A DNA stretch of 42,732 nt from positions 1 through 42,732 of the IMG/VR virus record IMGVR_UViG_3300028837_001289; one strand, 5' to 3'. Both the position numbers and the translations under genes were made by a program. The stretch comes from a virus. Below, in pieces: positions 2,362 to 21,584 of this stretch. The number at the start of each line of letters is the position of its first letter. Position 1 is the stretch's first letter. The notes under the pieces were generated by a model that was given only the letters and a program-made list of their open reading frames with translations, ran no database searches and had not been told where the DNA came from.

Positions 2362-2634
2362 CTATTTTTCAATACACTCGATATAAATTGTGCGTTCGTC
2401 TGTACGACCATCGGTAGTTGTAATCTTGTTTTCAACGGCATAGGTCGCTCCTGCCGTTCCACCGGATAACCACACTGTCGCGATGGTCGTTGTATTAGAA
2501 TCTGAGGTCTCGGTTAATCCAGTTGGAACAGTCCATTCACTTGTGATGATTGTATCATCATTTAGCCAATCCGACCAGTCGACTTGATAATCCAAAATCG
2601 CTTCTGGATCTTTTGTAAATCTATTATCTGCCAT
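2362..2634 (-). CDS. Fibre-tail adaptor (Gp77-like), 90 aa
   Basis: The sequence follows the pattern I associate with the Gp77-like phage fibre-tail adaptor family: KDPEAILDYQVDWSDWL, then VWLSGGTAG, then a TTDGRTDERTIYIE ending. Family members are about 90-110 residues, matching this length. They are thought to sit at the interface between tail tip and fibre. The ATG overlaps the stop of the giant fibre gene by one base (TAATG), implying translational coupling and co-assembly with that fibre. Family recognition is fairly strong from the spaced motifs. Confidence 0.75.
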   Translation of the reverse strand: MADNRFTKDPEAILDYQVDWSDWLNDDTIITSEWTVPTGLTETSDSNTTTIATVWLSGGTAGATYAVENKITTTDGRTDERTIYIECIEK

Positions 2635-5600
2635 TATTCCTCACAAATTACCTTGTATATTCTAACACAAAATTCCGGCGTGTAAACCCTGGTCTCCACA
2701 CAAATTACCTTGTATATTCTAACACAAAATTCCGGCGTGTAAACCCTGGTCTCCACAGGGGTTAAAGTTCTAGATTCATCGTCAACATAATAAATCCTAC
2801 ACTCTGGCGTCTCCGCCGAGGGAGATGCACTTGGGCTTGGAGAAGGACTTTTTGAAACACTTGGGGAAACTGAAGGGCTTGTGCTTGGGGAGACGCTAGG
2901 GCTGACCGACGGAGAGACTGACGGAGATACAGAGGGTGAGACTGACGGACTAACGCTCGGCGATACACTCGGAGATTCGCTTGCGCTTGGGGAAATGCTC
3001 GGACTTACCGATGGGCTGACTGAGGGTGAGACTGACGGACTAACCGAGGGCGAAGCCGAAGGACTGACTGACGGGCTTACCGAGGGGCTTACGCTTGGGG
3101 AAATACTCGCTGATGGTGAAATACTTGGGCTAACAGATGGGCTTGCGCTAGGACTAACCGAAGGACTTACACTCGGCGAGATACTGGGACTTATAGAGGG
3201 CGAAGCGCTGGCGCTTGGGCTTATGCTCAGAGACACCGACGGCGAGACAGATGGGCTTGCACTTGCACTTGGTGAGATAGATGGTGAAACAGATGGTGAT
3301 GCGCTTGGGCTGATGCTTGGCGAAACAGAAGGGCTTACAGACACGCTCGGTGAAACACTCGGCGAAACGCTTGGCGAAATTGAGGGCGATATACTTGGGG
3401 AAACACTTGGGGAAACCGAAGGCGAAACGGAAGGTGAAACGCTAGGCGATACCGACGCGCTTGGGCTTACGGACGGACTGATTGATGGCGAAATACTCGG
3501 AGACACCGAGGGTGAGACAGATGGCGAAATACTTGGAGAAACAGATGCGCTAATACTCGGTGAGACAGAAGGGCTCGCGCTTGGCGAAACGCTTGGGGAA
3601 ACCGAGGGCGAAATACTGGGTGAGACGGAGGCAGATGGACTCACCGATGGTGATACGCTTGGTGAAACCGAAGGACTGATCGACGGGCTAGTTGACGGTG
3701 AAACTGAAGGTGACACACTCGCGCTTGGAGAAACAGATGGGGATACGCTCGGGCTTACACTTGCGCTTGGGGAAATACTTGGAGAAATCGAAGGCGAGAT
3801 TGACGGACTAACTGATGCCGAGGGGGATATGCTTGGACTGACAGAAGGTGATACGCTTGGTGAAACCGAAATCGAGACCGACGGAGACACCGACGGCGAA
3901 ACACTTGGAGAAACACTGGCGGAAGGCGATGGGGATGGGCTTTCCGAGACCGAGACAGACGGAGACACCGAAGGTGATACACTTGGCGAGACCGAAGCAC
4001 TTGGACTTACTGACGGCGAGACAGAAACTGAGACGCTGGGGCTAACGCTTGGGGAGACCGAAGGACTAATGCTTGCGCTTGGACTTATTGAAGGACTTGC
4101 CGACGCAGACACGCTTGGGCTTACGCTCGGAGAAACCGAGGGGCTAACTGAGGCTGACGGAGAAATGCTTGGGCTTACGCTTGGAGAAACACTTACCGAT
4201 ACGGAAGGTGAAACCGACGGACTAACTGATGCACTTGGGGAAATTGAAGGCGACACCGAAACGGAAACCGACGGCGACACCGATGGCGAAATCGAAGGTG
4301 ATACGCTGACAGAAGGGCTTATAGATGGAGAGATTGAGACCGATTCACTTGGAGAAACCGAGGGCGAAACCGACGGGCTTACTGATGCGCTTGGAGAAAT
4401 TGATGGTGAAACGCTCGGAGAGACTGACGGGCTTATGCTTGCGCTAGGTGAAACCGAAGGACTTTCCGAAGGCGAAATACTTGAACTTACCGATGGGCTT
4501 ATGCTTGGGCTTACAGAAGGGCTTGTTGACGGGGAAACCGAAGGAGAAACAGACGGACTCTCGGATGCCGACGGAGATATAGATGGTGAGACACTTGGAG
4601 AAGCCGAAACCGAAACTGAAGGAGAGACAGACGGAGATACTGATGCGCTTGGGGAAAGTGATGGCGATTCGCTCGGGCTTACAGAAATTGAAACCGAGGG
4701 GGAGACACTAGGCGAAACACTAGCCGACGGGCTTAATGATGGGCTGGCGGAAACCGATTCGCTTACCGATACAGATGGTGAAACTGACGGGGAAACAGAT
4801 GCACTTGGCGAAACCGAAGGACTTACCGAAACCGATTCACTTGCACTAATACTTGGGCTTACAGAAGGCGAAACACTTGCTGAAGGACTGATTGACGGAC
4901 TTACACTAGGGCTAATTGAGGGGGAAATGGATGGGCTGATGCTCGGCGAAATGCTCGCACTAGGCGAGATCGAAGGACTGACCGACGGAGAGATACTGGG
5001 ACTTATTGATGGGCTAACTGAAGGCGAAATACTTGCGCTTGGAGAAATCGAAGGACTGATTGATGGGCTTACGCTTGCGCTCGGCGAAATTGATGGGCTT
5101 ACCGAAGGGCTTACGCTCGGACTTACACTTGGACTTATAGATGGGGAAACGGATGCACTAGGACTGATCGAGGGCGACACACTCGGCGAGATTGACGGCG
5201 AAACCGATGGGGACACACTTGGCGAGATTGACGCGCTAGGAGAAATTGAAGGACTAACCGAGGGCGAAACAGACGGAGAAACCGAGGGCGAGACGCTTGC
5301 GCTAGGGGACACCGAGGGTGAAACAGATGGACTTTCTGAGGGAGAAACGCTCGGAGAGACCGAAGGACTGACGCTTGCGGAAGGACTTACACTTGGGGAA
5401 ATTGAAGGACTTACACTTGGGCTTTCTGAAGGCGAGACTGACGGCGAAACGGATGGTGAAACCGAAGGCGAAACGGATGCAGAAGGAGAAATGCTGGGCG
5501 AAACACTTGGACTAATACTTGGGGAAATTGAAGGACTTTCACTTGGAGAAACACTTGCTGATGGACTAACGCTTGGGCTAACAGACGGCGAAACGGATGG

Positions 5601-7454
5601 ACTGACAGATGGTGAAATACTTGGCGAAACACTTGGTGAAACGCTTGGAGATACACTTGCCGAAGGGCTTATACTAGGACTAATGCTTGGGCTAACCGAG
5701 GGCGAGACACTTGGACTTTCTATTGCTGCGCCTTCCCGAATAGTTACCCTTATTTGAGTGACTCTTCCACTAGATTCTTGTGTCGCGTTAAATGCCGATG
5801 CTCCAGCATCGCCAATCTGATCTCCGCTATCATACATATACCCACCATAGTCTTCGGCATTATCCCGCTCCATTGTTGCGCCAGATGGTTGATACCAGCC
5901 AAAGTATTCTCCGGTAGCAATGGGGAAAATATTGTTAGGGAAGTCTACTCCTTCAACAAATGTATTAAGACCTGCACCTAAAACAAAATCTTCCTTGTAA
6001 TATGTGTCAGTAAAATTATTGCTAGACCTCGTGAATACCGCAAACTGAAAACCCGTTGGGTTGTAATCTGCGGGATAGACTTCTATCTGGCTAATATAGC
6101 CATTCTCAAATGGCGATGCTTCACCAAAGACGTATGTGTAGTTGCCGGTTGATGCGGAAGATTGGTTTGCGGGCTCGGTCTTGCAGCCCATGTACAGGGC
6201 GTATTCAATTGTCAGTTTAGGACGATGGGCTGCCGTTGATTTATTGGCTTGGGCAAAATTCTTAAATGAGTTAACAACCGAAGTAAATCTAAGCCACCAC
6301 CCATAATTTGTATATGTTCCATTAACAAAATCCTGTACATCTGATTGCACATCATAGGTATGGTAGCTAGGGTCTACGCTAACTGTTTGTGTATCTGTGG
6401 CAGTTGTAACATAATCGTCATCATCTCCACCCCCCGCGCCCCCAATCCATGCCACAGAACCATTGTGGTTTCGATAATTCCAAGTGCATCCATCAACTCC
6501 TACCCCAGGTGTAGCCCCATTCTCAATACCTTCCCACCATGTAGACAACCCTCTATATATTGCAATATCCCTGTCATCCTCATCCGATTGGTAATGTAGA
6601 TATAATTGTAAGTCGGCACTAAGCACAGTAGAATTAGTGGGAATAGAAGAAACGTCAAATTGTATTAATCCTTTTAGTTCATCTGTGGCACTATTCCACC
6701 AACCAATACAAATATCAACATAATCCCCATAGTTAGTATCAGCCGCCCCTGCATATATTAAAGTATCATTTCCGGCTGTCTCGTCAGGTTGCAACTCTAG
6801 CGTGGGGTCAATCAATGGCTTACTCATTCCCGTCAAATCAGGAAGCGTAAACAATGCGTACCATTGACCCGCCTGTTGAACAAATTTATGTGCTATTTGC
6901 CGTGTGTCGTATGGATTGTCATAATCGTAGACTACCGGCTTTCGCAACCGCATCACCTTCTCGCCGTTAGCATAAATCTGGCCGCCAATTCTGTTTAGCC
7001 CCGTCAACCCAACGGGCATGGCAAATTGTGACCATCTCTCCCAATCAGATTTAAGTAGTATCCCCCACTTGATGTAGTGACCTGCGTGAACAATGTGGGC
7101 GTTCTCGTAATCGGTAGTCCATTTCAGGCGATTGCCTATCCGCGTTCTATTCCCAAATCCAGGGCGCACCCAATTCCCCCCAACTTTTATTAATGGTGCT
7201 CCAAACTCAAAATATCTATCCTGCTCCCGTGTTGGGTGAACTCTAAAGTCGCCATCATCTGCAACCGATACCATAAGCCGCGACGCGCTGACCATGTGCG
7301 GACGCGCGGATATACCACTATCGCCCCAATCAGAATTAATGCGTTTTAATACACCCCCATCATCATACGCAATTGGAGTAATGTGAAATGTCTGGCGGAA
7401 ACGACCTCCGCCAAGCGATTCTATTTCAACATGAGAGTTAAGGAATTCGGACAC
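2634..7454 (-). CDS. Giant modular tail fibre with Ser-Pro repeat stalk, 1,606 aa
   Basis: Four regions can be read. Residues 1-215 are a beta-rich domain of unknown family. Residues about 217-420 resemble a DNRLRE/CBM96-type jelly roll (TLELQPDETAGNDTLIYAG, then KGLIQFDVSSIP and the closing PKLTIEYAL). Residues 421-575 form a compact module starting YMGC and ending IRVTIR; a homologue occurs in the 620-aa fibre gene. Residues about 577-1547 are almost only Ser, Pro, Val, Ile, Ala and Glu in SPSVSPSISPS-type repeats. The C-terminal 60 residues are Cys-containing and include a 19-aa tandem duplication. It is translationally coupled to the fibre-tail adaptor, so a tail-fibre or adhesin role is likely. 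The repeat may be an extended, possibly glycosylated stalk. Confidence 0.75.
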   Translation of the reverse strand: MSEFLNSHVEIESLGGGRFRQTFHITPIAYDDGGVLKRINSDWGDSGISARPHMVSASRLMVSVADDGDFRVHPTREQDRYFEFGAPLIKVGGNWVRPGFGNRTRIGNRLKWTTDYENAHIVHAGHYIKWGILLKSDWERWSQFAMPVGLTGLNRIGGQIYANGEKVMRLRKPVVYDYDNPYDTRQIAHKFVQQAGQWYALFTLPDLTGMSKPLIDPTLELQPDETAGNDTLIYAGAADTNYGDYVDICIGWWNSATDELKGLIQFDVSSIPTNSTVLSADLQLYLHYQSDEDDRDIAIYRGLSTWWEGIENGATPGVGVDGCTWNYRNHNGSVAWIGGAGGGDDDDYVTTATDTQTVSVDPSYHTYDVQSDVQDFVNGTYTNYGWWLRFTSVVNSFKNFAQANKSTAAHRPKLTIEYALYMGCKTEPANQSSASTGNYTYVFGEASPFENGYISQIEVYPADYNPTGFQFAVFTRSSNNFTDTYYKEDFVLGAGLNTFVEGVDFPNNIFPIATGEYFGWYQPSGATMERDNAEDYGGYMYDSGDQIGDAGASAFNATQESSGRVTQIRVTIREGAAIESPSVSPSVSPSISPSISPSASVSPSVSPSVSPSISPSVSPSVSPSVSPSVSPSASVSPSESPSISPSISPSVSPSISPSASVSPSVSPSVSPSVSPSESPSVSPSISPSVSPSASVSPSVSPSVSPSESPSVSPSVSPSASVSPSVSPSVSPSVSPSISPSASISPSVSPSVSPSISPSVSPSISPSASVSPSISPSVSPSVSPSVSPSISPSASVSPSISPSISPSASISPSVSPSISPSISPSVSPSISPSASISPSISPSISPSISPSVSPSISPSASVSPSVSPSISASESVSVSPSVSPSASVSPSVSPSVSVSESVSASPSLSPSASVSPSVSPSVSISVSPSESPSLSPSASVSPSVSPSVSVSASPSVSPSISPSASESPSVSPSVSPSTSPSVSPSISPSVSSSISPSESPSVSPSASISPSVSPSVSPSISPSASVSPSVSPSVSPSESVSISPSISPSVSVSPSISPSVSPSVSVSVSPSISPSASVSPSVSPSVSVSVSPSVSPSISPSASVSPSVSPSVSPSVSASASPSISPSASISPSVSPSVSPSVSVSVSPSVSPSASVSPSVSPSVSPSVSVSESPSPSPSASVSPSVSPSVSPSVSISVSPSVSPSVSPSISPSASVSPSISPSISPSISPSASVSPSVSPSVSPSASVSPSVSPSTSPSISPSVSPSVSPSVSPSASVSPSISPSVSPSVSPSASPSVSPSISASVSPSISPSVSPSVSPSISPSISPSVSPSASVSPSVSPSVSPSVSPSVSPSISPSISPSVSPSVSPSVSVSPSVSPSISPSASPSVSPSISPSASASPSVSPSVSLSISPSASASPSISPSISPSVSPSVSPSASPSVSPSISPSASISPSVSPSVSPSVSPSASPSVSPSVSPSVSPSVSPSISPSASESPSVSPSVSPSVSPSVSPSVSPSVSPSVSPSTSPSVSPSVSKSPSPSPSASPSAETPECRIYYVDDESRTLTPVETRVYTPEFCVRIYKVICVETRVYTPEFCVRIYKVICEE
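2642..2757 (-). repeat. 57-bp perfect tandem duplication at the fibre C-terminus
   Basis: Bases 2642-2700 are repeated without mismatch at 2699-2757. The 57-base period keeps frame and duplicates the 19 residues VETRVYTPEFCVRIYKVIC, so the protein ends with two identical Cys-containing segments. Perfect identity indicates a recent event. Confidence 0.9.
2830..5725 (-). repeat. Ser-Pro (SPS) coding repeat, about 2.9 kb
   Basis: The stretch encodes about 970 residues of hexapeptide-like units SPSVSP with Ile, Ala, Glu or Thr substituted for Val, and occasional SPSASVSPS or SVSVS phase shifts. Ser is written with both AGY and TCN codons and Pro with several codons in irregular order. DNA identity between units is therefore modest although the protein is highly regular. 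The antisense strand is open for 958 codons as a by-product. Confidence 0.9.
5730..6194 (-). other. Shared fibre module (YMGC...IRVT), copy 1
   Basis: About 155 residues of the giant fibre: YMGCKTEPANQ at one end, GFQFAVFTRSSNNFTDTYYK in the middle, EYFGWYQPSGA, then GRVTQIRVTIR. The 620-aa fibre gene has a clear homologue at about 16990-17457 with the same landmarks. The module resembles a small beta-sandwich of the carbohydrate-binding type. In this gene it is followed by an SPS tract; in the other it is flanked by SPS on both sides. Confidence 0.7.
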
Positions 7455-7474: not shown

Positions 7475-9133
7475 TCAAATCCTTTTCCATAAATGCCCTA
7501 ACGTACCCCACCCAGGCACATTAAAGTTCTTTTTGGCTTCCCACCCTTTGGTAAACTTCTGATTGCGGAATTCTTCTTTAGTCCACCTGGAGGCGGTTGC
7601 GTTTTTGTCGTGCCGTAAATCAATATTTGGGAATTCGGATTTCCAGCCCTCGGCTTTGTAATTATTAAACTCCTTAATTCTATTATGAGTGCCCGGTTCG
7701 AAGCCGACCTTTCTTATATTAATGTCAGGGTTATTTTCAATCATCTCAACTAGCTTTGTGTAATACTCAAGCAGAAATTCTCGATTAGCACAAAGCCCTG
7801 ATAACTGTTTGCAATCATCGACTCTTACCCCAAACCCGTCACTCATGCGAATCTTTACTACGTTCGTGTTGTAATAAAACACATCCTTCTCTTTTGGTAC
7901 GAAATAGAAATGTGAGTTGTGATAAAGGATATCGTGTTCACAAAAGAACACATAGTCGGTATCAAGTTCTTTTAGACCGGCTAGAATTTGGCGGAACATA
8001 GTAAGATACCCTGGCTTTTCGGACAGGCGAATATTGTCCCCAAAGTCAAGCGGTTTCAGGGAAACACTTACAATTCTATGCGTGCCAATAGACTTTTTAA
8101 TCTGCTTCTGGCACTTCTCCATTATATCACCATCTAAATCGTTATCCGTGTAATAGAGAACGCCCCATGACTTGACGTTTTCCGTACCAGAAAATATCGC
8201 GCCTGCCCTCACAACTCGCGCTAAATCCTCGTCGCTCCAATCAGGGACGGGCCAAAACCTCTCGACTAACCACGATAGCGGATAAATCTGTTTATCCCAC
8301 TTATTATTTAAAAATGTATCTCTTAATTGATTCTTTGCCTTTTTTTGTTCCCTTCCAGGATTTGAATAAGGAAAGCTAAAATCGCCTCCCTGAGTGCGAA
8401 ATAGGTGTGCATACCATGTTTTCTTATTGCACATTACTCGTCCGCCGCTAAGCCATGTTTTTATGCTGGTCTCCGCGCCTTGACCACCCCAACTTCCCCA
8501 TGTCTCGTCGCATAAATTTAATTCATTATATTTCTCCCTGGCAATCATAAAGCAAGAGCCTTGTAGAGACATTGTTTCCACTAAGTCGCCTGTCTGCTTC
8601 TTTTTATACTCACCAAAATATTTGAATTCTAAGTCGCTAGTGAAACGATAGGACGTACTATTGGGGCTTGGCTTTGCTTGCCAAAGAATATCGCGAGTCG
8701 TAGGTTTCCCACACTCGGTACATGCTCCGCTTGGCCCCTGATACCGTCTGTGTCCATCCTCGCATACCCAATCGAACCCGTGCAAATTTTTCATTAGTGG
8801 TACGAAAGTCCAGTTATCGTTCATATCCGCGAGCATTTTCGTGTCCATGCCCTCGTCAATGGAGCAGTGAGCGTCCATCTTCATAATGTATTTTGCGTCG
8901 CTAACACTCACCGCCCTATTACAGCAAGCCCGCTGTCCGATGCTTTCCGGATAAAATAGAACTGTAACCCTTTCGTCAACCGGTAGCGGTGGATCCGCCC
9001 ATTGCCCGTCTAACACGGCAATAATCTCTGTGTTGCCCCTAATATTGTCCAGTAAATCTTCAATTGTCTTTGCTAGAAACATTTCGTTTCTTGCGGGAAT
9101 AATTATGCTTAAATCTTTTGGTATATTTCTCAT
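7475..9133 (-). CDS. Two-domain family 2/27-like glycosyltransferase, 552 aa
   Basis: Residues 1-295 are a GT-A fold: LSIIIPARNE at the start, LDGQW, then MDAHC (86-90) at the metal/nucleotide-sugar position, and WGGQGAETSIKTWLSGG followed by TWYAHL. DAHC plus a WGG...H segment resembles polypeptide GalNAc-transferases. A small zinc-knuckle-like insertion (C124, H128, C138, C141) interrupts the domain. Residues about 300-552 form a second domain with YYTDNDLDG and CEHDILY, which may be another GT-A-like unit. The paralogue at 14549-15454 lacks this second domain. It overlaps its upstream neighbour by four bases. Likely role: sugar transfer onto a virion protein or glycan; acceptor unknown. 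Confidence 0.75.
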   Translation of the reverse strand: MRNIPKDLSIIIPARNEMFLAKTIEDLLDNIRGNTEIIAVLDGQWADPPLPVDERVTVLFYPESIGQRACCNRAVSVSDAKYIMKMDAHCSIDEGMDTKMLADMNDNWTFVPLMKNLHGFDWVCEDGHRRYQGPSGACTECGKPTTRDILWQAKPSPNSTSYRFTSDLEFKYFGEYKKKQTGDLVETMSLQGSCFMIAREKYNELNLCDETWGSWGGQGAETSIKTWLSGGRVMCNKKTWYAHLFRTQGGDFSFPYSNPGREQKKAKNQLRDTFLNNKWDKQIYPLSWLVERFWPVPDWSDEDLARVVRAGAIFSGTENVKSWGVLYYTDNDLDGDIMEKCQKQIKKSIGTHRIVSVSLKPLDFGDNIRLSEKPGYLTMFRQILAGLKELDTDYVFFCEHDILYHNSHFYFVPKEKDVFYYNTNVVKIRMSDGFGVRVDDCKQLSGLCANREFLLEYYTKLVEMIENNPDINIRKVGFEPGTHNRIKEFNNYKAEGWKSEFPNIDLRHDKNATASRWTKEEFRNQKFTKGWEAKKNFNVPGWGTLGHLWKRI

Positions 9134-9635: not shown

Positions 9636-10607
9636 TTACTCGCTATAAACAACCTTGCTTCCGTTAGGCTCAAACGAGAAGTTTGTTGGCTTAAAACCCA
9701 GGGATCTCGCAATCGCTGTGTGCTTATCCTGTGGCGCATAGAAAAGTAGGAATCCGCCACCACCGGCACCACAAATTTTGCCCCCGATTGCCCCCGCTTC
9801 TTTCGCCTTTCTGTACCATTTGTCAATTAGTAGGTTTGAATCATCACCATTAAGACGCTTTTTCAACTGCCAGTTTTTGTCAAGAAGTTCCCCAAAATAA
9901 TCTAGCTGGTTTAGCTTAATGGCGACCCTCATTTCGTGAACAATTCCGACCATCTCTCGCAAAACCCCCTGGCGTTCTTTGTTGAACCGGCTTTTTTGGG
10001 CAGCCAAAATCTTGTCGGATTGCCGATATACACCAGTATAAAACATTATCAATCGCGATTCAAGTTCCTTTTGAACTTTTGGCAAACACTCGACCAAATC
10101 ACTATCAACCGTTCCATCAGTATTAAAGCGAAAAGTTCTCCACCCGCCATAGGCCGCGATGTACTGATCCTGTTTACCAATCGGCTTTTTAAGTCTTTCA
10201 ATTTCAACCTGACACGCCATTTGTGCCAAATACTCAGGAGTGATAGCAATCCCCTTGCAGGCATAGAGACCGTTCAACAACCCCGCGACATACGCGCTCG
10301 ACGAACCAAGACCTGTCCCACCCGAAGGGATGTCGGCGATTGACACAATTTCTATGCCCCCATCAATCTCGGCAAGCCTCAAACATTCCTTGATTAGCTC
10401 ATGCCGAAGATCTTCAACATCATCTACAATTTCTGTCACCGAATAGCTGGCGCGGATCTTGTTGTCAAACTTTGGATTAATCGCAATATAGATGTATTTA
10501 TTAATAGCGGTAGAAAGAACCGCCCCGGGCTCCTCTTTGAAAAAATACTCCATATCACTCATACCACCGACAAACGAGATCCGGAGAGGTGTTCTTGTAA
10601 GAATCAT
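9636..10607 (-). CDS. hddA: GHMP sugar kinase, D-glycero-D-manno-heptose 7-phosphate kinase-like, 323 aa
   Basis: ATG 10607 is chosen because it overlaps the upstream stop (ATGA) and follows an AGGAGA site; an upstream in-frame ATG at 10625 lies inside that gene. The start RTPLRISFVGG matches heptose kinases (motif 1). The ATP loop is PSGGTGLGSSSAYVAG (about 95-109), and the third GHMP motif GGKICGAGGGGFLLF is near the C-terminus. Length is typical. HddA-type kinases phosphorylate heptose 7-phosphate at C1 on the way to GDP-heptose. None of the partner genes (isomerase, phosphatase, guanylyltransferase) is seen here, so these would have to be host functions, or the kinase may act on another sugar. 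Confidence 0.8.
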   Translation of the reverse strand: MILTRTPLRISFVGGMSDMEYFFKEEPGAVLSTAINKYIYIAINPKFDNKIRASYSVTEIVDDVEDLRHELIKECLRLAEIDGGIEIVSIADIPSGGTGLGSSSAYVAGLLNGLYACKGIAITPEYLAQMACQVEIERLKKPIGKQDQYIAAYGGWRTFRFNTDGTVDSDLVECLPKVQKELESRLIMFYTGVYRQSDKILAAQKSRFNKERQGVLREMVGIVHEMRVAIKLNQLDYFGELLDKNWQLKKRLNGDDSNLLIDKWYRKAKEAGAIGGKICGAGGGGFLLFYAPQDKHTAIARSLGFKPTNFSFEPNGSKVVYSE

Positions 10608-11131
10608 ATTTGTTCTCCTAAACAATGTATGAATGGGTGCCGTCCAAAATGCGACCTCGCATGTTCAAGATTCAAAATATTATAGCCAGCAAACAAGCCC
10701 TCCCTGACCGCCTCCTCGGTTGCGCGCCAATAATCTTTTGCATCGCCGGCCCTTCTCCCTTCGTGCTTGGGAAACCCAAGCGTAGGAATAGCAATATAAA
10801 GATGCCCACCCTTTTTTAATACGAAATTCATGTTGGCGATTGCTTGCCACGGATTTGCAAGATGCTCCAATACGTGAAGACACAGAACTGCGTCGAAACA
10901 ACCTCGATCGAAGTTCTTTGTTAGATCGTATACACTAAGAATCCTATCGACATTTAGTCCAGCATAAATATCAATCCCTAAGTACTCACTATCAGGAAAC
11001 AAAGATTTTGGACTTGTGCTTATTCCTTTTCTGTTTTCGTTTTCTCTACTACCGACGTCAAGAACAAGTTCGGGAACAATGTTGTGCTCTTTGTTTATTT
11101 CTTTCATCCAGACAAGCGTGTGATCAATCAT
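10604..11131 (-). CDS. Class I SAM-dependent methyltransferase, 175 aa
   Basis: Motif I is VLDVGSRE (23-30), followed by the acidic strand end YLGIDIYAG and the post-motif FDAVLCLHVLEHLANPWQ typical of the Methyltransf_11 group. The LKKGGHLYIAIP strand completes the fold. The protein is short but contains the full Rossmann core. It overlaps both neighbours (8 and 4 bases). In this context it probably methylates a sugar or the end of a glycan, but small-molecule and protein substrates cannot be excluded. Confidence 0.7.
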   Translation of the reverse strand: MIDHTLVWMKEINKEHNIVPELVLDVGSRENENRKGISTSPKSLFPDSEYLGIDIYAGLNVDRILSVYDLTKNFDRGCFDAVLCLHVLEHLANPWQAIANMNFVLKKGGHLYIAIPTLGFPKHEGRRAGDAKDYWRATEEAVREGLFAGYNILNLEHARSHFGRHPFIHCLGEQI

Positions 11132-13294: not shown

Positions 13295-13924
13295 CTACAC
13301 CTTCACCCAAAACCAGCTCGGACACTTATCGCCCCGCAGCACAAACCAGGGTCTTATTCCATACGAGCGAGTGTACGCGTCAACCACCGGCTTTACATGA
13401 TACCTATTGTCAAATGTTGGTTTAAATCTCCTGTAATCATGCCCGGAGACAATCCCTCCAACCCGAACCTTTTTCTCCCAACCATCAATATCACGGGCGA
13501 TGTCCACAAAACGATGGTTGCCATCTATATAAACAAAGTCTAGGGATCCGTCCTCAAAGTCCTCAACCGCGTCCATGCTAAATTTTCTAATAATCTCGCA
13601 ATTATATGGCGCCAGTGTTTCCTGGGCGTTTTTGTGTAATTGGTTTAGTTTGTCCTGATTAACATGGTCTCGATAGCCCTCATAAACGAGCCAAGCATCA
13701 ATGGAATAGAGTTTCAGCCCTGGAATCTTTTCACAAAGACGGGCTGAGTAGACGCCCTCTTCAACCCCTATTTCAGCACCAACGCTAAAACCAAGTTCCT
13801 TAAAAATTTCCGGCAATGCATAATGTCTTCCTAATCGCTTGGTTTCGCTTTCAATAATGATGGGTGGTTTCCCATCAAGATTCAGGGAATATTTATCAGC
13901 AAGATAACCCAGAGCATTGATCAT
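13295..13924 (-). CDS. Class I methyltransferase (Methyltransf_24-like), 209 aa
   Basis: VGAEIGVEEGVYSARLCEKI (48-67) is motif I with the GVxxGxYS form of cephalosporin-hydroxylase or Methyltransf_24 enzymes. LYSIDAWLVYEGYRD supplies the acidic strand end, and FVYIDGNHRFVDIARDIDGW the metal/DGxH region. VRVGGIVSGHDYRR completes the family pattern. It is a tandem paralogue of the next gene upstream. Enzymes of this group often O-methylate sugars in surface glycans. Confidence 0.75.
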   Translation of the reverse strand: MINALGYLADKYSLNLDGKPPIIIESETKRLGRHYALPEIFKELGFSVGAEIGVEEGVYSARLCEKIPGLKLYSIDAWLVYEGYRDHVNQDKLNQLHKNAQETLAPYNCEIIRKFSMDAVEDFEDGSLDFVYIDGNHRFVDIARDIDGWEKKVRVGGIVSGHDYRRFKPTFDNRYHVKPVVDAYTRSYGIRPWFVLRGDKCPSWFWVKV

Positions 13925-13926
13925 TA

Positions 13927-14559
13927 TTATACCCTAACCCAAAACCAACTAGGAGATTTGTTGCCCATCACTATAAACCAAGGCCGTATCCCACGCGCAT
14001 AAGCATATGCCTGAACTACGTATATTACATCACAAACATATGCTTTATGAGGATTGTGCCTTCTGTAATCGTGACCAGAAACAATCCCACCAACCCGGAC
14101 TTTTTTTTGCCACTCTACAATATCGTTTGTGACGCTTTGAAAATCGTGGGCACCATCAATGTAAACAAAATCTAATGACTCGTCCTCAAAATCTTTAACT
14201 GCGTCCATGCTAAACTTTTTGATGATCTCACAGTTATAGGGCGCCAACCGTTCCCGAGCTTGTTCACAGAGCCGGTTCATTCTTCCTTGACTAAGGTTTT
14301 CTCGATAGCCCTTATAAATCTCCCACGAGTCAATGGAATAAAGCTTTAGTCCGGGAATTTTTTCACAAAGCAGTGCGGAGTATATTCCTTTTTCGACCCC
14401 TATCTCTGCTCCGATCTTAAATTCGAGATTTTTAAAAATTGCGGGGAGAATGTGTTCCCTCCCAACAAGCTCGCCCTCACCCTCAATGCGAATAGGCATC
14501 TTTGTAGCAAGATTGAGACTATATCTTTCGACCAGATAATCTAAAGCATCAATTGTCAT
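13927..14559 (-). CDS. Class I methyltransferase, tandem paralogue, 210 aa
   Basis: Nearly every landmark of the downstream paralogue recurs: IGAEIGVEKGIYSALLCEKI, LYSIDSWEIYKGYRE, FVYIDGAHDFQSVTNDIVEW and VRVGGIVSGHDYRRHNP, with the same PSWFWV C-terminus. The two differ throughout, so the duplication is not recent and the copies may have different acceptors or positions. The start overlaps the glycosyltransferase gene by 11 bases. Function as for its neighbour. Confidence 0.75.
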   Translation of the reverse strand: MTIDALDYLVERYSLNLATKMPIRIEGEGELVGREHILPAIFKNLEFKIGAEIGVEKGIYSALLCEKIPGLKLYSIDSWEIYKGYRENLSQGRMNRLCEQARERLAPYNCEIIKKFSMDAVKDFEDESLDFVYIDGAHDFQSVTNDIVEWQKKVRVGGIVSGHDYRRHNPHKAYVCDVIYVVQAYAYARGIRPWFIVMGNKSPSWFWVRV

Positions 14560-15454
14560 CTCGCATTCTCCATAAGCTGCGGTCGTCTGGCCAGGTTGGC
14601 ACCGGCCAGAATTGTTCGATCAACCACGAAATATCGTGTACCCGATCAGGCCATAAATTTCGCATCCAGTAATTTACCGAATAAGCATTCCCCGCGGTAG
14701 TTTCCCTTTTGTTCATATAGTATCCTCTACCATATTGCCGACCCTTGTGCAAGTGGGCGTACCAGGTTTTTTTATTAACCATCAACCTTCCGCCACCGAG
14801 TTGGGTTTTAAGCCCTACTTCTTGCGGCTCACCGATAAATGTCCCATAGCCCTCCTCTTGAAGCCCACCTATTCTTTTCCAAAAATGGTCTAAGGTCGTA
14901 AACCAGCAGGATCCCTGAAAACTTAAATTGTCATCAATGTCATATTCGGGTTTATTTAATCTTTCCCGGGCACGATCACCCCAAACCGTCCCGTGAATTC
15001 CTACCTCGTGGGGTTTCCAGTAGGGATAACTTAAAAACTCGTAATCAATGGCTGGTCGCTTGTCGCCCATTTCAGTACGACGACACCAGTTTTCGGCATC
15101 AAGCCTTTCGCGCCTGGGAATCACGACCCAATTATCGTCGCAGTCTGCTTTGAGAACCTCGTCGTAACCCTCGGCAAACATACAATGACCGTCTATCTTC
15201 ATCAAATATTTTCCGTTCGCAATCGCGGCGGCAGAGTTGATGCCATTCCTCATGCCCCTGGCATAGCCCCGGTGTAGAATAGTTAAGTTTTTGTGATCTG
15301 GTAGTTGTGGGGGATCCCATTTCTCGTGACGCCAGTAGCCATCCAACACGGCTATAATTTCAATTTCCCCAGACGCCTTAGTTAAAAGGTCGTTAATCGT
15401 CTGGGGGAGAAATAGTTCATTGCGTGTTGGAATAATCACAGATAATTTGCTCAT
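14549..15454 (-). CDS. Family 2/27-like glycosyltransferase, 301 aa
   Basis: LSVIIPTRNELFLPQTINDL at the N-terminus and MKIDGHC (85-91) at the metal site mirror the first domain of the 552-aa enzyme. NLSFQGSCWFTTLDHFWKRI is followed by GEPQEVGLKTQLGGGRLMV and TWYAHLHKGRQ. The DxHC motif and acceptor-side G-G/H-rich segment resemble polypeptide GalNAc-transferases, which attach the first sugar to Ser/Thr. AAAGGA precedes the ATG with an 8-base spacer. It is the first gene of the glycosylation block and immediately follows a Ser-Pro repeat protein gene, which makes Ser-rich repeat proteins attractive acceptors. Confidence 0.75.
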   Translation of the reverse strand: MSKLSVIIPTRNELFLPQTINDLLTKASGEIEIIAVLDGYWRHEKWDPPQLPDHKNLTILHRGYARGMRNGINSAAAIANGKYLMKIDGHCMFAEGYDEVLKADCDDNWVVIPRRERLDAENWCRRTEMGDKRPAIDYEFLSYPYWKPHEVGIHGTVWGDRARERLNKPEYDIDDNLSFQGSCWFTTLDHFWKRIGGLQEEGYGTFIGEPQEVGLKTQLGGGRLMVNKKTWYAHLHKGRQYGRGYYMNKRETTAGNAYSVNYWMRNLWPDRVHDISWLIEQFWPVPTWPDDRSLWRMRDDN

Positions 15455-15523: not shown

Positions 15524-16249
15524 TTATGCTGACGGCGAAGCACTTACGCTTTCGCTAACTGATACGCTCGAGCTAGGCGAGACGCTTGGGCTAACCGAAG
15601 GACTCACGCTTGGTGAGACTGAAGGGCTAACCGATGGTGATACCGAAGGACTTACGCTCGGAGAGACCGAAGGACTCACGCTTGGTGAGACTGAAGGGCT
15701 AACCGATGGTGATACCGAAGGACTTACGCTCGGAGAGACCGAAGGACTCACGCTTGGTGAGACTGAAGGGCTAACCGATGGACTGACCGACGGCGAAACA
15801 CTTGGACTGACCGACGTTGAGACACTAGGGCTTACGCTCGGCGAGACGCTTGCGCTTGGGCTTACACTAGCAGAAGCCGAAGGCGATCCACCCGCAAACA
15901 TCAACATGCCCGATGAAAGCGAACTTGTGCGGGCCTTAACTGTCACAGATGTTCCAGCCACAAACCCCAAATAAGCACGAAAATCTGTCATACAATCAAC
16001 TGGGATAGTGTAAATTCCGTTAGCAACAATGACACCAATTTTGTGCCCGTCATGTTTAACACTCCTTAAACTTACCCAGTCACCGTCCGCAATTCTTGCT
16101 TGTGGTCGGAGATTAATGTCTGTATATGTGCCCGTCACCTGTATAGAGACAACAGCCATTCCTTGAATATTTAACGTCTGACCAGCGCCGTCCGCCGAGA
16201 CCGCCGAGTGCAGCGTTTTTTGTTTTGTGTACGCTACTGCTTCTCGCAT
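15524..16249 (-). CDS. Virion-associated protein with Ser-Pro repeat tail, 241 aa
   Basis: AAAGGAG precedes the ATG. Residues 1-122 are a folded beta-rich domain (for example MAVVSIQVTGTYTDINLRPQ and GIYTIPVDCMTDFRAYLGFV), similar in style to small jelly-roll domains in phage tail proteins. Residues from about 125 to the end are Ser-Pro repeats (SPSASVSPSVSPS...) finishing SVSESVSASPSA. The gene lies between the fibre genes and the glycosylation island. I infer a tail-tip or fibre accessory protein carrying an extended Ser-rich tail. The 72-bp DNA repeat within it suggests the tail length changes readily. Confidence 0.6.
   Translation of the reverse strand: MREAVAYTKQKTLHSAVSADGAGQTLNIQGMAVVSIQVTGTYTDINLRPQARIADGDWVSLRSVKHDGHKIGVIVANGIYTIPVDCMTDFRAYLGFVAGTSVTVKARTSSLSSGMLMFAGGSPSASASVSPSASVSPSVSPSVSTSVSPSVSPSVSPSVSPSVSPSVSPSVSPSVSPSVSPSVSPSVSPSVSPSVSPSVSPSVSPSVSPSVSPSVSPSVSPSVSPSSSVSVSESVSASPSA
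15594..15781 (-). repeat. 72-bp in-frame tandem repeat, about 2.6 copies
   Basis: The unit beginning GACTCACGCTTGGTGAG (plus strand) starts at 15601, 15673 and 15745, with no mismatches seen over the shared length. Each unit adds 24 residues (four SPSVSP blocks). Unlike the giant fibre repeat, the copies are identical at DNA level and so recent. Confidence 0.9.
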
Positions 16250-16514: not shown

Positions 16515-18377
16515 TTAAGAACTGTACTCCACTTCAGCCGTGTCAATAAACGAGATCCACCTTACGGCCCTTCCAGAATTTCCGTCATCCATCGCCTGAA
16601 AAACGAGTGCATTAGTAGTGTCATTAATTACCGCTCGAATATTAAAATTAGAAATCGAAATACTTTGTGAAAGGCTCGCACTCTCTGAGGCCGAGGGCGA
16701 TATACTCCCACTTGGAGAAACCGATGCGCTCGGACTTATCGATCCGCTGGGCGAAATCGAAATAGAAAAACTGGCTGATGGAGAAATGCTTAAAGATACG
16801 CTAGACGACGGGCTAAGAGACTTGCTTGGAGAAAGTGATGCGCTTGGGGAAATTGAGGCGCTAGGCGAAATGCTTAGGCTAACGCTACTCGAGTCCGAAG
16901 CCGAGGGCGAAATACTAGGACTTACCGATGTCGATGGAGACATACTACCGCTGGGGCTTAAACTCGCGCTTGGCGAAACACTGGCCGACGGTACGGTAGC
17001 GGCCCTTACCGTAACGCGTATTTGAACAAGCCTGCCACCCGATTCTTGCGATGTGGTAAAAGACGACGACGCGCCATCGCCAATCTGGTCGTCAGCATCA
17101 TACACATATCCCCCGTATCCGCCGGACATATTCAATTCTATATACGCACCAGACGGTTGAAACCAGCCAAAATACTCACCGGTATCAATGAGTAATGAAT
17201 CCGCCAGATAATCAACGCCCTCAACAAAAGTATTAAGACCTGCGTTGACAGCAAAATCTTCTTTGTAGTATTTATCAGTAAAATCATCCCCAGACCTTGA
17301 AAATACCGCGAACTGAAATCCGTCTGGCGTAGCATCGTTTATATAAACCTCAATCTTGCTAATTGTTCCGGCAGCGGGACAGGCCTCGCCAAAAACAAAA
17401 GTGTACCCACCCGTCAGTCTGTTGGCTTGATTGGCTGGCAAGGTATCACACCCCATATAATACGGAAATTCTAAAGCAGACGGACTAGCACTGGCACTCT
17501 CAGAACTGGAGGGTGAAGCACTTGAACTAGCAGAAACCGAGACTGATGCACTTGGGGAAAGGCTTGAACTCGGTGATACCGAGGGTGAAACGGATGCGCT
17601 TGCACTCACTGAAGGCGAAACAGATCTACTAGGACTCGCGCTTGCACTTGGGGAAATTGAAATTGAATAACTGGCGGATTCACTTGAAGACGGGCTGACC
17701 GAGGCGCTTGGAGATATGGAGGCACTTTGAGAAACAGACGGCGATACCGACGGGCTATCAGAAGTAGTCTCAGATTCAAACATGGAATTAACCACCATGT
17801 AATTTAAAGCCATCGTACCGGCCACGTTGGTGGCCGACCCCTCAACCCTATAACCATACTGTTTTGCTAAGCTTGCCTCCGCCCCCAGGATCAGGGCATT
17901 GAATGTTATGTGTGAATTCTCGCGCATATAAATTGCGGCGATGTCTTGCCACGAAGATGTAATATCTATCGCCGCCTTTTCGGTATAATGGCCCGATTGA
18001 GCATCCCCATAACCCTCAATGTAGTTTCCCACAATCCATGCGCACGGATTTTTATAAGCCCACCCGCCAGATCCGCCCACAATCGAATCGGGTGCAGCAG
18101 CATCGATGCGATTATATTGACCGCCCAATATAGTTGAACGAGCACCGCCAGCGACCTGAGCATCAACCGCTGAATCCCGGTTTAATTGAAAATCTACTGC
18201 ATCCGTCCCTCTTGTTCCAAGTGCGTCATGTTCAGGAAACCCAGTCCCATAGATAACGGTCTGGTTTCCCTGTCCAGATGACCAAGCAGAATTAATCATT
18301 TCGCGAATAAGTTTACGAACATACGGCTCAATTTTCCTGGCAAGCGTGGTGAGTTTATCGTCAATTATTTTCATCAT
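16515..18377 (-). CDS. Fibre paralogue with inserted SPS-module-SPS cassette, 620 aa
   Basis: Start placed at ATG 18377 (ATGA overlap); this aligns the N-terminal helix (DDKLTTLARKIEPYVRKLIR) with those of the two upstream paralogues. Residues 1-207 match the 266-aa paralogue (GTGFP, TDAV, YKNPC, SWQDIAAIYMR). Residues 208-576 are an SPS tract, a YMGC...IRVT module (about 306-462) and a second SPS tract. Residues 577-620 return to the paralogue's C-terminal strand pattern (NFNIRAVINDTTNALVFQA, DDGNSGRAVRW). The insertion therefore split a pre-existing domain. Probable receptor-binding or tail-tip fibre. Confidence 0.7.
   Translation of the reverse strand: MMKIIDDKLTTLARKIEPYVRKLIREMINSAWSSGQGNQTVIYGTGFPEHDALGTRGTDAVDFQLNRDSAVDAQVAGGARSTILGGQYNRIDAAAPDSIVGGSGGWAYKNPCAWIVGNYIEGYGDAQSGHYTEKAAIDITSSWQDIAAIYMRENSHITFNALILGAEASLAKQYGYRVEGSATNVAGTMALNYMVVNSMFESETTSDSPSVSPSVSQSASISPSASVSPSSSESASYSISISPSASASPSRSVSPSVSASASVSPSVSPSSSLSPSASVSVSASSSASPSSSESASASPSALEFPYYMGCDTLPANQANRLTGGYTFVFGEACPAAGTISKIEVYINDATPDGFQFAVFSRSGDDFTDKYYKEDFAVNAGLNTFVEGVDYLADSLLIDTGEYFGWFQPSGAYIELNMSGGYGGYVYDADDQIGDGASSSFTTSQESGGRLVQIRVTVRAATVPSASVSPSASLSPSGSMSPSTSVSPSISPSASDSSSVSLSISPSASISPSASLSPSKSLSPSSSVSLSISPSASFSISISPSGSISPSASVSPSGSISPSASESASLSQSISISNFNIRAVINDTTNALVFQAMDDGNSGRAVRWISFIDTAEVEYSS
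16650..17756 (-). mobile_element. Inserted SPS-flanked protein-coding cassette
   Basis: The 369-codon segment is absent from the paralogous gene at 18374-19174, where FETD is followed directly by ANFDLQVVVND. Here FESETTSD is followed by the cassette and then NFNIRAVIND. It consists of Ser-Pro tract, 155-aa YMGC module and Ser-Pro tract. No transposase or target duplication is visible, so recombination through repeat DNA is the simplest explanation. Mobility is inferred from the paralogue comparison only. Confidence 0.5.
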
Positions 18378-19174
18378 AAACTCATGTGATAGATACTTGC
18401 GCCAATGGCTTCCGATGTCCTTGCATGAACACACCATTTAACGCTACGCCCGGAATTGCCGGAATCTTTTACCTGAAAATCCAGGGCGTCAGTCGAATCG
18501 TTTACAACCACCTGCAAATCAAAATTTGCGTCTGTTTCAAAAAGTGTCGTCACGTCTTCTTGAAGCAAGGTCATTGAGCCGTTTCTTAATTTGGTTGTAG
18601 CAATTACTTTGTAAGAATAAGAGCGAACCGCATCAATTTCTATTCCAGCAATATATGCATGAAAACCGGCTGTATTCCATTCTTCTCCGGGGACATCAGC
18701 CCAAATATGCGTAAATCCCCTCATATAAATTGAGCCGATTGTCTGCCAGGAATCCGACATCGTTATTTCGCTTGATTCTGTATATCTCCCCGCCTGGCTT
18801 TCATAAAGATCATACATCATATATCCGGCAGAAACAGAGCATGGATTCTTATATGTTTTTCCAGCCCATCCCCAAGCGATAGAATCTGTGACGGTGGGTT
18901 CTGTGAAACACGAAAATGCCCCAAGTATTGCTGAGCGTTCCGCTTGTGCTGTCTCCGATTCGTCCCACAACGAACCATCGGGTGTAAGCACAACGGCGTC
19001 TGTTCCCGTATACCCATCTGACAAATCTACTTGTGGAAATGGCGTGCCCTGAATATAGGTTTCCCCATCCCTGAGTATCCCCGTTGTATCTCCAAGAATA
19101 TCGCGTATTTGCTTGCGAAGAAATGGCTCGAGCAACTTGACTAATGTGGAGATCTTCCCATCTGCGAATCCCAT
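18374..19174 (-). CDS. Fibre paralogue without cassette, 266 aa
   Basis: ATG 19174 forms a TAATG junction with the upstream stop; the longer frame to 19213 would overlap. A short amphipathic helix (KISTLVKLLEPFLRKQIRDI) is followed by a beta-rich body: TYIQGTPFP, TDAVVLTPDG, YKNPC, SDSWQTIGSIYMRGFTHIW. The C-terminal part contains FETDANFDLQVVVNDSTDAL and DSGNSGRSVKWCVHARTSE. The middle gene of three tandem paralogues, and the reference showing what the 620-aa protein looked like before insertion. Role inferred as tail-tip or receptor-binding protein from position and duplication. Confidence 0.65.
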   Translation of the reverse strand: MGFADGKISTLVKLLEPFLRKQIRDILGDTTGILRDGETYIQGTPFPQVDLSDGYTGTDAVVLTPDGSLWDESETAQAERSAILGAFSCFTEPTVTDSIAWGWAGKTYKNPCSVSAGYMMYDLYESQAGRYTESSEITMSDSWQTIGSIYMRGFTHIWADVPGEEWNTAGFHAYIAGIEIDAVRSYSYKVIATTKLRNGSMTLLQEDVTTLFETDANFDLQVVVNDSTDALDFQVKDSGNSGRSVKWCVHARTSEAIGASIYHMSL

Positions 19175-19950
19175 TAGAAACTTATCTCCGATATACGCGC
19201 ATGAACAAACCACCGAATTCCTTGATAGACCTCGCTATAAGCATCGAACAAGAATCCAACATCACTCCAGGCACTTATCCGCACATCTACGGCATCACCA
19301 TCGGAATAAATCTCAGTTGAGTTTTGCCAAACGACACTAAATGTATCGTCATTCCAAGTAACCATTGCATCCAACACAAAATGCCAGCATTTGCTACCAT
19401 CATAAACATTGTGACCAGCAAAATAACAATTAAACAATAGGGTTTGAGGGGTTGGTGTATCATAAAACTTATAACCAAAAAGTGATGTCCAAAGACCGCC
19501 ACTCGGATAGTCCCCATAATATTCTTCACCAAACATGCACAACCACATTGATTGACCATCACCAGGGATGCTAAATTTATTTCCCATTGCCCAGACAATA
19601 TCATCGGAAACATAACTTCCGTTTCCGCCGCCGACACTCTCTGCCAGCCAATATGTCGAGTTGTTTTGTCCACCCAAAATCTTCTGGTTACCCCCTGTTG
19701 TTATTTCGCCATCATTTTCGCGATTTAATTGAAAGTCCCCATAGTTATAAACTCGATCTCCCCCCACATTTTCTTGACCACGACCGAGTTCACTTTCGTC
19801 TAAATATGGAAATCCAGTCCCATGAATATAGGTCATCCCACGCTTAAACTTGCTATTTCGCGCACCAAGAATCTCTCGAACCCATTTGCTTACAAATGGT
19901 TCAAGCCCGCGCGCCAGACCAGTTAATTTCCCTTCCGTAAATTCACTCAT
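19174..19950 (-). CDS. Fibre paralogue, first of three, 258 aa
   Basis: ATG 19950 overlaps the upstream stop (ATGA) and lines up the helix TEGKLTGLARGLEPFVSKWV with its paralogues; a longer frame begins at 19968. TYIHGTGFPYLDE and FQLNREND correspond to landmarks in the 620-aa copy, and the C-terminus (GIRWFVHARISEISF) to the 266-aa copy. The central region is diverged and Tyr/Trp/Gly-rich (YDGSKCWHFVLDAM), consistent with diversification of a binding surface. Likely tail-tip or receptor-binding protein. Confidence 0.65.
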   Translation of the reverse strand: MSEFTEGKLTGLARGLEPFVSKWVREILGARNSKFKRGMTYIHGTGFPYLDESELGRGQENVGGDRVYNYGDFQLNRENDGEITTGGNQKILGGQNNSTYWLAESVGGGNGSYVSDDIVWAMGNKFSIPGDGQSMWLCMFGEEYYGDYPSGGLWTSLFGYKFYDTPTPQTLLFNCYFAGHNVYDGSKCWHFVLDAMVTWNDDTFSVVWQNSTEIYSDGDAVDVRISAWSDVGFLFDAYSEVYQGIRWFVHARISEISF

Positions 19951-21584
19951 CCTTGTTCGTATTGCCACCGTCGATTAATGCCAGGACTTTTGAGTTCTGA
20001 AAGCGCGTCTGTGATAATATCCGAGTCTCTGGCCTGCTTAATTTTATAAATACCCTTCTGAGCATCATACTCCGATTGCTCAACAAACAATCTATCAGCA
20101 TTAGAAAGTTTCGATACATCTACGGACACAGGGACAATGTCTTTTAACTGTACCCAATATGCCACAGGGCAAGATGCTAAATGAATATCATTATTGTATT
20201 GGTCTGTTACCAGACCATTTCTGTCGATAAAGAAATCAGCACTTCCGGATGCAGGTTCTTCGTACACCTGAAGAACTCGATTTGGCGTAACCCTTACCAT
20301 TAAACGATTCCCGCCCGCAGTCCCGCATTTAAGTAACTCCTCAAGTTCATGGAGGGCTAAAGAGTCGCCGCTTCTATACGGATAGCTGTATACCCCAGTT
20401 GTTTCTAAAATTTCCGAGTCCGTAAAAAATTCTGCTTCGTCAATGATGTCTTGTATCATAACTGTCGTTTCTAGTTGACCAATAACACGAAAATTGTAAT
20501 CATTAACCATACTGGTTGAGGGGCTCGTCCAATCATCGCCAAACATCAAGACCTTGGCATAACCATCCTCATACCCGTCTTCCAAAGTTCCCCCCATTGC
20601 ATAATGATTCTCGGAGTCAAGGGCTCCTGTTCTTTCTACTTGAATCCAATATGTTGTTCCAGGCGTAATTGTATATGGACTTGATAATTCAAACTCGTAC
20701 CAATCATAGTATTCTGTTATATCTGCGGCATCAAGTAGTGCGGAAGTTTTCAAAAGTGTGCCGGGGCCATTGGGCTGATATCCTGTGCCAACGGTATTCG
20801 CCCTGAGTGTAAGTTGCACTTCGTCGTCCGGGGCCGGTGTAACTTCCCAATTGTTGCTTGCATAGCAAAGTCTTACCGAAATCGATGTAATATCCCAGGC
20901 TTTTGCTGAATTAACCACAAAGCCTTGCGCGGCCTTTTCCGCAAAAGTCCCACCACCAAAACCATACCGCGTAGAATTGCCAGACATTTCATAGGCAACT
21001 TTTCCACCATCGTTTGCATAATATTTCCACGCAACCGTCGCCAACCACCCCAGGCATTCGACCCGAGCCATTGCAGTATCTCGTCTAGAGGCAAATTGGA
21101 TTGGTAGCCGAGACGGGTATTTTCTTACATCAAGCTCAACGTTGCGGAATTGAATGGCTTGTTCAGCGGTCTTATCATTTGTTGATAGTAGAATTTCTTT
21201 TGTGCCATATTCAGTTGAGCTGTCTGTGTCGGTCGCCCAGCCCGTCGTTTCGCGCTCAAAATTGTAAGTATATGCCACAGCAAGCTTGTTAGACATTTTA
21301 TCAAGTGACACCCCATATTTTATGCCTGTGGTCGAATATACGTCTACTTTTGATATGAAACCCCACCATACCGTCTCGCTACGAGCTTGGTCAACCAGGT
21401 TGACCGGACACCGGATCATTTCAATAAATTTCCAAATATCCTCTTCGGAACCATAAACATCAAAAGACGCCTTTAGTGGGCCACCGATGGCGGATTGAGA
21501 ATACTTATTAACTACAATTGATTCCCAGTGCCTACCAATATATTCTGAAAAATCCCTGTTGTAAAATTCTACCCCGATTGTCAT
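19947..21584 (-). CDS. Baseplate/tail-tip protein with lectin-like insertion, 545 aa
   Basis: ATG 21584 overlaps the preceding stop (ATGA); the frame extends upstream to 21614. The first 120 residues (VEFYNRDFSEYIGRHWESIV, YGSEEDIWKFIEMIR) and the last 150 (GDSLALHELEELLKCG, PNRVLQVYEEP, ADFFIDRNGLVT) look like the two halves of a siphophage tail hub-like protein. Between them, about 215-375, is a beta-sandwich typical of secreted carbohydrate-binding modules (ISVRLCYASNNW, TPGTTYWIQVERTG). It follows a Dit-like protein, the usual place for a Tal or hub protein. The insertion may give glycan binding. Confidence 0.6.
   Translation of the reverse strand: MTIGVEFYNRDFSEYIGRHWESIVVNKYSQSAIGGPLKASFDVYGSEEDIWKFIEMIRCPVNLVDQARSETVWWGFISKVDVYSTTGIKYGVSLDKMSNKLAVAYTYNFERETTGWATDTDSSTEYGTKEILLSTNDKTAEQAIQFRNVELDVRKYPSRLPIQFASRRDTAMARVECLGWLATVAWKYYANDGGKVAYEMSGNSTRYGFGGGTFAEKAAQGFVVNSAKAWDITSISVRLCYASNNWEVTPAPDDEVQLTLRANTVGTGYQPNGPGTLLKTSALLDAADITEYYDWYEFELSSPYTITPGTTYWIQVERTGALDSENHYAMGGTLEDGYEDGYAKVLMFGDDWTSPSTSMVNDYNFRVIGQLETTVMIQDIIDEAEFFTDSEILETTGVYSYPYRSGDSLALHELEELLKCGTAGGNRLMVRVTPNRVLQVYEEPASGSADFFIDRNGLVTDQYNNDIHLASCPVAYWVQLKDIVPVSVDVSKLSNADRLFVEQSEYDAQKGIYKIKQARDSDIITDALSELKSPGINRRWQYEQG

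Follow-up and report, generated by a model that had tools for sequence, protein, structure and literature searches.

Introduction

Two described systems come closest to the locus analysed here. In lactococcal skunaviruses, the evolved distal tail proteins (evoDit) carry a foreign domain as an internal insert; their N- and C-terminal parts align to the short form of the protein, and the insert is reported to promote host binding and adsorption (PMC10688798). In Gram-positive bacteria, the serine-rich repeat (SRR) glycoproteins have the organization SRR1-BR-SRR2, in which SRR2 is a glycosylated stalk that projects the binding region, and a variable set of glycosyltransferases is co-located with them (PMC6973325, PMC7661464).

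The DNA that we analysed, called the window below, is a virus record of 42,732 bases, from an uncultivated phage, with minus-strand tail genes, a terminase, and a Mu-like portal and protease. The tail genes are followed by three tandem fibre-family genes, C, B and A. Like an evoDit, A is interrupted internally, and the sequences on either side of the insert align to a short form. Unlike an evoDit, it is not a recognisable Dit: the recipient resembles domains of fibres and spikes, and a long (S-x)n tract stands at each end of the insert. In Pfam and the PDB the inserted domain has no match, to a known CBM or otherwise. The order of Ser-rich tract, folded module and Ser-rich tract is shared with the SRR glycoproteins, as is the presence of glycosyltransferase genes adjoining the phage Ser-rich tract genes. 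However, the phage enzymes are GT2/GalNAc-transferase-like rather than the initiating GtfA/GtfB pair, the C-terminus of A (...DTAEVEYSS) has no LPXTG wall anchor, and the phage cassette is nested in a fibre domain. With neither Dit identity nor GtfA/GtfB and LPXTG, A belongs to neither group. Phage tail proteins with nested binding domains are already known; in A the insert is accompanied by two long arms of alternating Ser and by a plausible dedicated enzyme for adding sugar.

Gene A and its uninterrupted paralogues

The genes and the two flanks of the insert are as follows:
16515..18377, minus strand: gene A, 620 aa, fibre-family protein with nested cassette; its start codon and the stop codon of B overlap (ATGA)
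17760..18377, minus strand: N flank of A, aa 1-206; its homologue in B is aa 1-215, with 33% over 215 aa (E=4e-34)
16515..16655, minus strand: C flank of A (aa 575-620), expected to complete the fibre domain; 50% over 40 aa with B aa 216-255, E=2e-13
18374..19174, minus strand: gene B, 266 aa, uninterrupted paralogue recognised by its sequence match to A, with aa 106-266 modelled; the junction equivalent is aa 215/216
19174..19968, minus strand: gene C, 264 aa, a more distant paralogue without insert, recognised by homology to A and B

The original prediction held that a cassette had been inserted into A within a domain that B carries whole. The gene boundaries, the reading frame, and the 369 extra codons between two B-matching stretches are as it claimed, and the frame is open throughout. 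In BLASTP alignments the match between A and B begins at the start of both and extends to residue 203/215; it resumes over the last 40 aligned residues. When scored against 300 same-residue shuffles, the N flank gives z=45 and the C flank z=23, so that homology on both sides is confirmed. The C flank is conserved more strongly than the N flank (50% against 33%), which fits a C flank that still completes the domain.

C matches the N-terminus of A at 38% over 139 aa and B along its length at 24% (E=5e-14); B and C align through their ends, where the DNA match is 81% (repeat D20). By sequence alone, the last 40 residues of C cannot be paired with the C flank of A (z=1), and for this portion C is a weak outgroup. 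Since neither B nor C has the insert and the domain is contiguous in matching folds elsewhere, an insertion in A is more likely than two precise losses in B and C. The reverse polarity, with the long form ancestral and B and C its deletion derivatives, draws on the small sample, namely three paralogues in one genome with no relatives found outside. Against it, two of these three are uninterrupted, as are the similar folds in other phage proteins; deletion must restore a tight hairpin precisely; and the module of A is closer to its copy elsewhere in the window (62%, see below) than the flanks of A and B are to each other (33%), which fits a later arrival. We regard an ancestral long form as improbable.

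For A, B, C and the module alike, no relatives were found in 50,697 phage records, IMG/VR scans or GTDB scans. In the IMG/VR and GTDB scans, relatives with another module, or with none, at the same junction were likewise not found beyond the window. None of A, B and C matches a tail protein in Pfam or PHROG. A match of A to PHROG 15511 covers mostly tract, and was taken as low-complexity similarity.

Low-complexity tracts are classic misassembly points, and an assembly or annotation artefact, with a chimeric join through the repeat, was considered; none of the results points to one. No 21-mer of the insert recurs elsewhere in the window, and on this ground misassembly of the insert was rejected; the frame is open for all 369 codons, and Ser and Pro codon use is like that of the rest of the phage. 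The chance that A is such an artefact is very slight.

The recipient domain and the insertion site

The model of B aa 106-266, made with the pieces of A and with C, is a beta-sandwich (mean pLDDT 60, core blocks 65-82, pTM 0.62). The junction at B aa 215/216 corresponds to model residue 110/111, in the turn of four residues that joins strands 95-108 and 113-120. A junction in a turn between two strands makes this a nested insertion rather than a fusion.

A fold search with the B domain retrieved the Klebsiella phage Kp9 fibre gp42, Acinetobacter phage spikes and T4 gp9 (five PDB chains, E 4e-4 to 1e-3, moderate TM 0.4-0.5). The likeness is one of fold, with about 10% identity, and in these proteins the domain is contiguous. 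Among viral models there were 114 matches at E<=0.001, many from uncultured phages. On this model the insertion site is a hairpin turn, a tolerant position, in a recipient domain of the fibre type. That the insertion lies inside a fibre domain, as originally predicted, is borne out by the uninterrupted homologous B, by the junction in the predicted hairpin turn, and by the fold similarity to phage fibres and spikes. The model of full-length A is poor (mean pLDDT 35); the two flanks of A would be expected, from the model of B, to fold jointly as one domain.

Serine-alternating tracts

Residues 207-575 of A comprise three parts in order: the 94-aa tract 1 at 17759-17478, then a module of about 158 aa at 17474-17000, and last tract 2, which has about 112 aa and runs to 16652. 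A further tract gene, D, lies nearby:
17478..17759, minus strand: tract 1, (S-x)47, 94 aa, Ser at 47/47 alternate positions
16652..16991, minus strand: tract 2, (S-x)n, about 112 aa, Ser at each alternate position
15524..16249, minus strand: gene D, an N-terminal domain of about 120 aa and a 120-aa (S-x)n tail

The tracts of A were first described as Ser-Pro tracts. They are real, but strict (S-x)n alternation is the more accurate description, P filling about one in four of the x positions. The scan of tract 2 lists one exception, a V, which is the first residue of the scanned stretch and stands before the tract. Over the four tracts (both tracts of A, the tract of the 1606-aa gene introduced below, and the D tail), Ser alternation is exceptionless for about 640 positions. 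The x positions are occupied by many different residues (P, V, A, I, L, S, E and others), the Ser codons come from both families, mixed TCN and AGY, which together indicate that the alternation is held at the protein level. SPSVSPSV-type text was the subject of no paper found within the literature searched.

The DNA of the tracts is degenerate. Tracts 1 and 2 share no exact match longer than 14 nt, and the longest between the tracts of A and that of the 1606-aa gene are 17-19 nt; codon-shuffled tracts give matches as long as these, and there is no excess of shared DNA between the A tracts and the other tracts. The D tail is unlike them in having a 116-nt exact repeat and a 24-nt period. The exact repeat shows that such tracts can grow by tandem duplication; in D it may reflect recent tandem growth, or uncertainty in the assembled length.

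The inserted module and its second copy

The module of A has a copy in a large gene of the same window:
17000..17474, minus strand: inserted module of about 158 aa, without a match in Pfam; a poor model predicts it to be beta-rich, at low confidence
2634..7454, minus strand: 1606-aa gene, with a CBM96/disaggregatase-like region, a module copy, an (S-x)n tract of about 965 aa and a short C-terminus
5715..6203, minus strand: the second module copy, within the 1606-aa gene; 62% identity over 153 aa, DNA 71% over 313 nt, E=3e-39

The module has no match in Pfam, the PDB or the phage records, and belongs to a small family common to A and the phage's own 1606-aa tract protein. In the latter, the CBM96/disaggregatase-like region comes directly before the module and the tract after it, with no tract on the N side. 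The module and the tract that follows it are thus a unit common to A and the 1606-aa gene, and the preceding tract is special to A. The module copies are much closer than the A/B flanks, and on this ground the module probably reached A after the split of A and B, unless it merely evolves more slowly. To judge from its context, the module most likely serves as an adhesin for the host surface.

It had also been proposed that the tracts act as joints for the insertion of folded modules. In its stronger form, the repetitive DNA present in several genes would serve as a recombination joint by which folded modules are swapped, and the cassette would derive from such an exchange between A and the 1606-aa gene. 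In favour of this reading, a second tract gene holds a copy of the module, with a C-side tract in both places, and in other phages unrelated segments are found between tracts (see below); the latter also uphold the architectural part of the proposal. That tracts mediate the insertion could be read from the architecture. The tract DNA is degenerate and its longest matches are within the codon-shuffle range; the module of the 1606-aa gene has no N-side tract; and the junctions bear no mobile-element signs except TTCT at both ends. We therefore consider recombination through the tracts unlikely.

On the plus strand, a 958-aa open frame (2881-5757) runs antisense to the 1606-aa tract gene. It is probably a by-product of repetitive codons and not a gene.

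Glycosyltransferases encoded beside the tract genes

Two related enzymes are encoded next to tract genes, and the same block holds a sugar kinase:
14549..15454, minus strand: glycosyltransferase adjoining D, polypeptide GalNAc-transferase-like; profile A10 matches GalNAc-T4, E=1.8e-10 over 250 positions; Pfam GT2
7475..9133, minus strand: larger glycosyltransferase of the same family, adjoining the 1606-aa gene; profile A9 matches GalNAc-T1, E=1e-12
9636..10625, minus strand: GHMP sugar kinase; best model HddA, with a score below that model's cut-off

The two glycosyltransferases are 40% identical, and neither has a match in the 50,697 phage records. Each enzyme group was built into a profile with its IMG/VR relatives and searched against solved structures, among which the eukaryotic polypeptide GalNAc-transferases (GT27) are the best matches of both profiles. 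Every one of the 23 sequences in alignments A9 and A10 has the D-x-H-C motif, and with it the D-x-H metal motif. The Gal/GalNAc-T region, WGG...E...W..GG...H..R, is aligned as well, the profile reading WGqqG.EiavktWlsGG against WGGENLEISFRIWQCGG of GalNAc-T1. The phage enzymes differ from GT27 in that Pfam finds only Glycos_transf_2 in them, with no C-terminal ricin-type lectin domain; the similarity is remote, and does not fix donor or acceptor.

An IMG/VR scan for the enzyme gave 48 loci, of which 36 are distinct after joining those with 90% DNA identity over 1 kb. A tract gene, defined by at least 10 consecutive S-x units, is present in 32 of the 48 loci and 25 of the 36 distinct ones, against 0/7 control records (Fisher P=0.001); the controls, four cultured phages and three IMG/VR terminase relatives with about 300 kb among the seven, are a small set and not habitat-matched. 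The remaining 11 distinct loci have no tract in the fetched stretch, and some of them are short fragments. The tract genes lie on the strand of the enzyme and often adjoin it: they are within 300 bases in 13 loci, within about 1.3 kb in others, and further away in a few. This recurring genomic link of tracts with glycosyltransferases points to a spacer role. No report of phage (S-x)n tracts with such enzymes was found within the literature searched.

In five enzyme loci, unrelated segments stand between two tracts. The segment in L059 is Gly_rich_2 (E=1.5e-17) and that in L020 is BNR/propeller-like at E=1e-3, below the cut-off, while those in L050, L043 and L038 match no family above the cut-off. 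Most other tract genes have an N-terminal domain and a plain C-terminal tract tail, which also argues against tracts as mediators of insertion, and among the tract genes at enzyme loci there is no second example of nesting within a domain as in A.

In L018 (14287-16326), similar Gly-rich segments were seen by eye to flank one (S-x)n tract on both sides, which suggests module duplication across a tract.

The tracts could instead be unmodified linkers, flexible or extended, with the enzymes acting elsewhere, on host surface sugars or other virion proteins. Ser/Pro-rich linkers are extended without sugar, and the sugar kinase and methyltransferase genes of the same block could serve another glycan. 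However, a linker does not require Ser alternation as strict as this, and the link between enzymes and tract genes recurs in 25 distinct loci. On balance unmodified linkers are a doubtful reading, though one with a real chance of being correct.

A model for the nested cassette

We favour, as probable though far from certain, a fibre-domain nested cassette in which the module is an adhesin carried on O-glycosylated (S-x)n spacers made by the phage's GalNAc-transferase-like enzymes. The cassette, that is the 94-aa (S-x) tract, the 158-aa module and the 112-aa (S-x) tract, sits in a predicted beta-hairpin turn of the C-terminal beta-sandwich of A. The N- and C-terminal parts of A would pack together, leaving the module to hang from the domain on two long arms. 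Phage enzymes encoded beside the tract genes would add O-linked sugars to the (S-x)n tracts, and the sugared tracts would be extended spacers that carry the probable adhesin out from the fibre head domain. Such a cassette would work in the manner of the SRR1-BR-SRR2 adhesins and of the evoDits. The nested insertion and its site in the model, the second module copy, the exceptionless alternation, the similarity of the enzymes and their linkage to tract genes are results of the analysis, from which joint folding of the two flanks, glycosylation, display and binding are inferred.

A broader proposal extends this to a widespread group of uncultivated phages: they would encode a mucin-like or SRR-like O-glycosylation system of their own, in which the (S-x)n tracts of tail proteins, sugared by GalNAc-transferase-like phage enzymes, are stiff spacers that display interchangeable binding modules, sometimes nested in fibre domains. 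We put this forward tentatively, as somewhat short of an even prospect. If the tracts are glycosylated, these phages would have converged on the presentation used by mucins and SRR adhesins, with an enzyme family best known from animals. The pairing of tract gene and enzyme is testable in E. coli, and the paralogues A and B provide a natural comparison of one domain with and without the cassette.

Other features of the window

The terminase (39512-40996) is 58-66% identical to the terminases of L005-L007. Beyond it at most one other gene of these records matches the window, and the relation between them is one of strong mosaicism; with so little in common, these relatives were set aside as a help on the cassette. 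Relatives of the neighbouring tail genes were searched for and none were found.

The genes at 13295-13924 and 13927-14559 are tandem duplicates with 71-74% DNA identity in the matched stretches, and at least the first is a Methyltransf_24 methyltransferase. Relatives of the pair occur in 28 of the 48 enzyme loci, which indicates the same gene neighbourhood.

Two tail genes upstream of C contain segments of a different kind. Residues 182-233 of the product of 21581-23158 match PHROG 1236, 'head protein' (E=8e-6), and look like a small exchangeable domain within the tail protein. In the product of 19947-21614, a segment at about aa 215-385, judged by eye to be a beta-sandwich, lies inside the tail protein without any tract. 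It is a possible second nested insertion, and as such would show that tracts are not needed.
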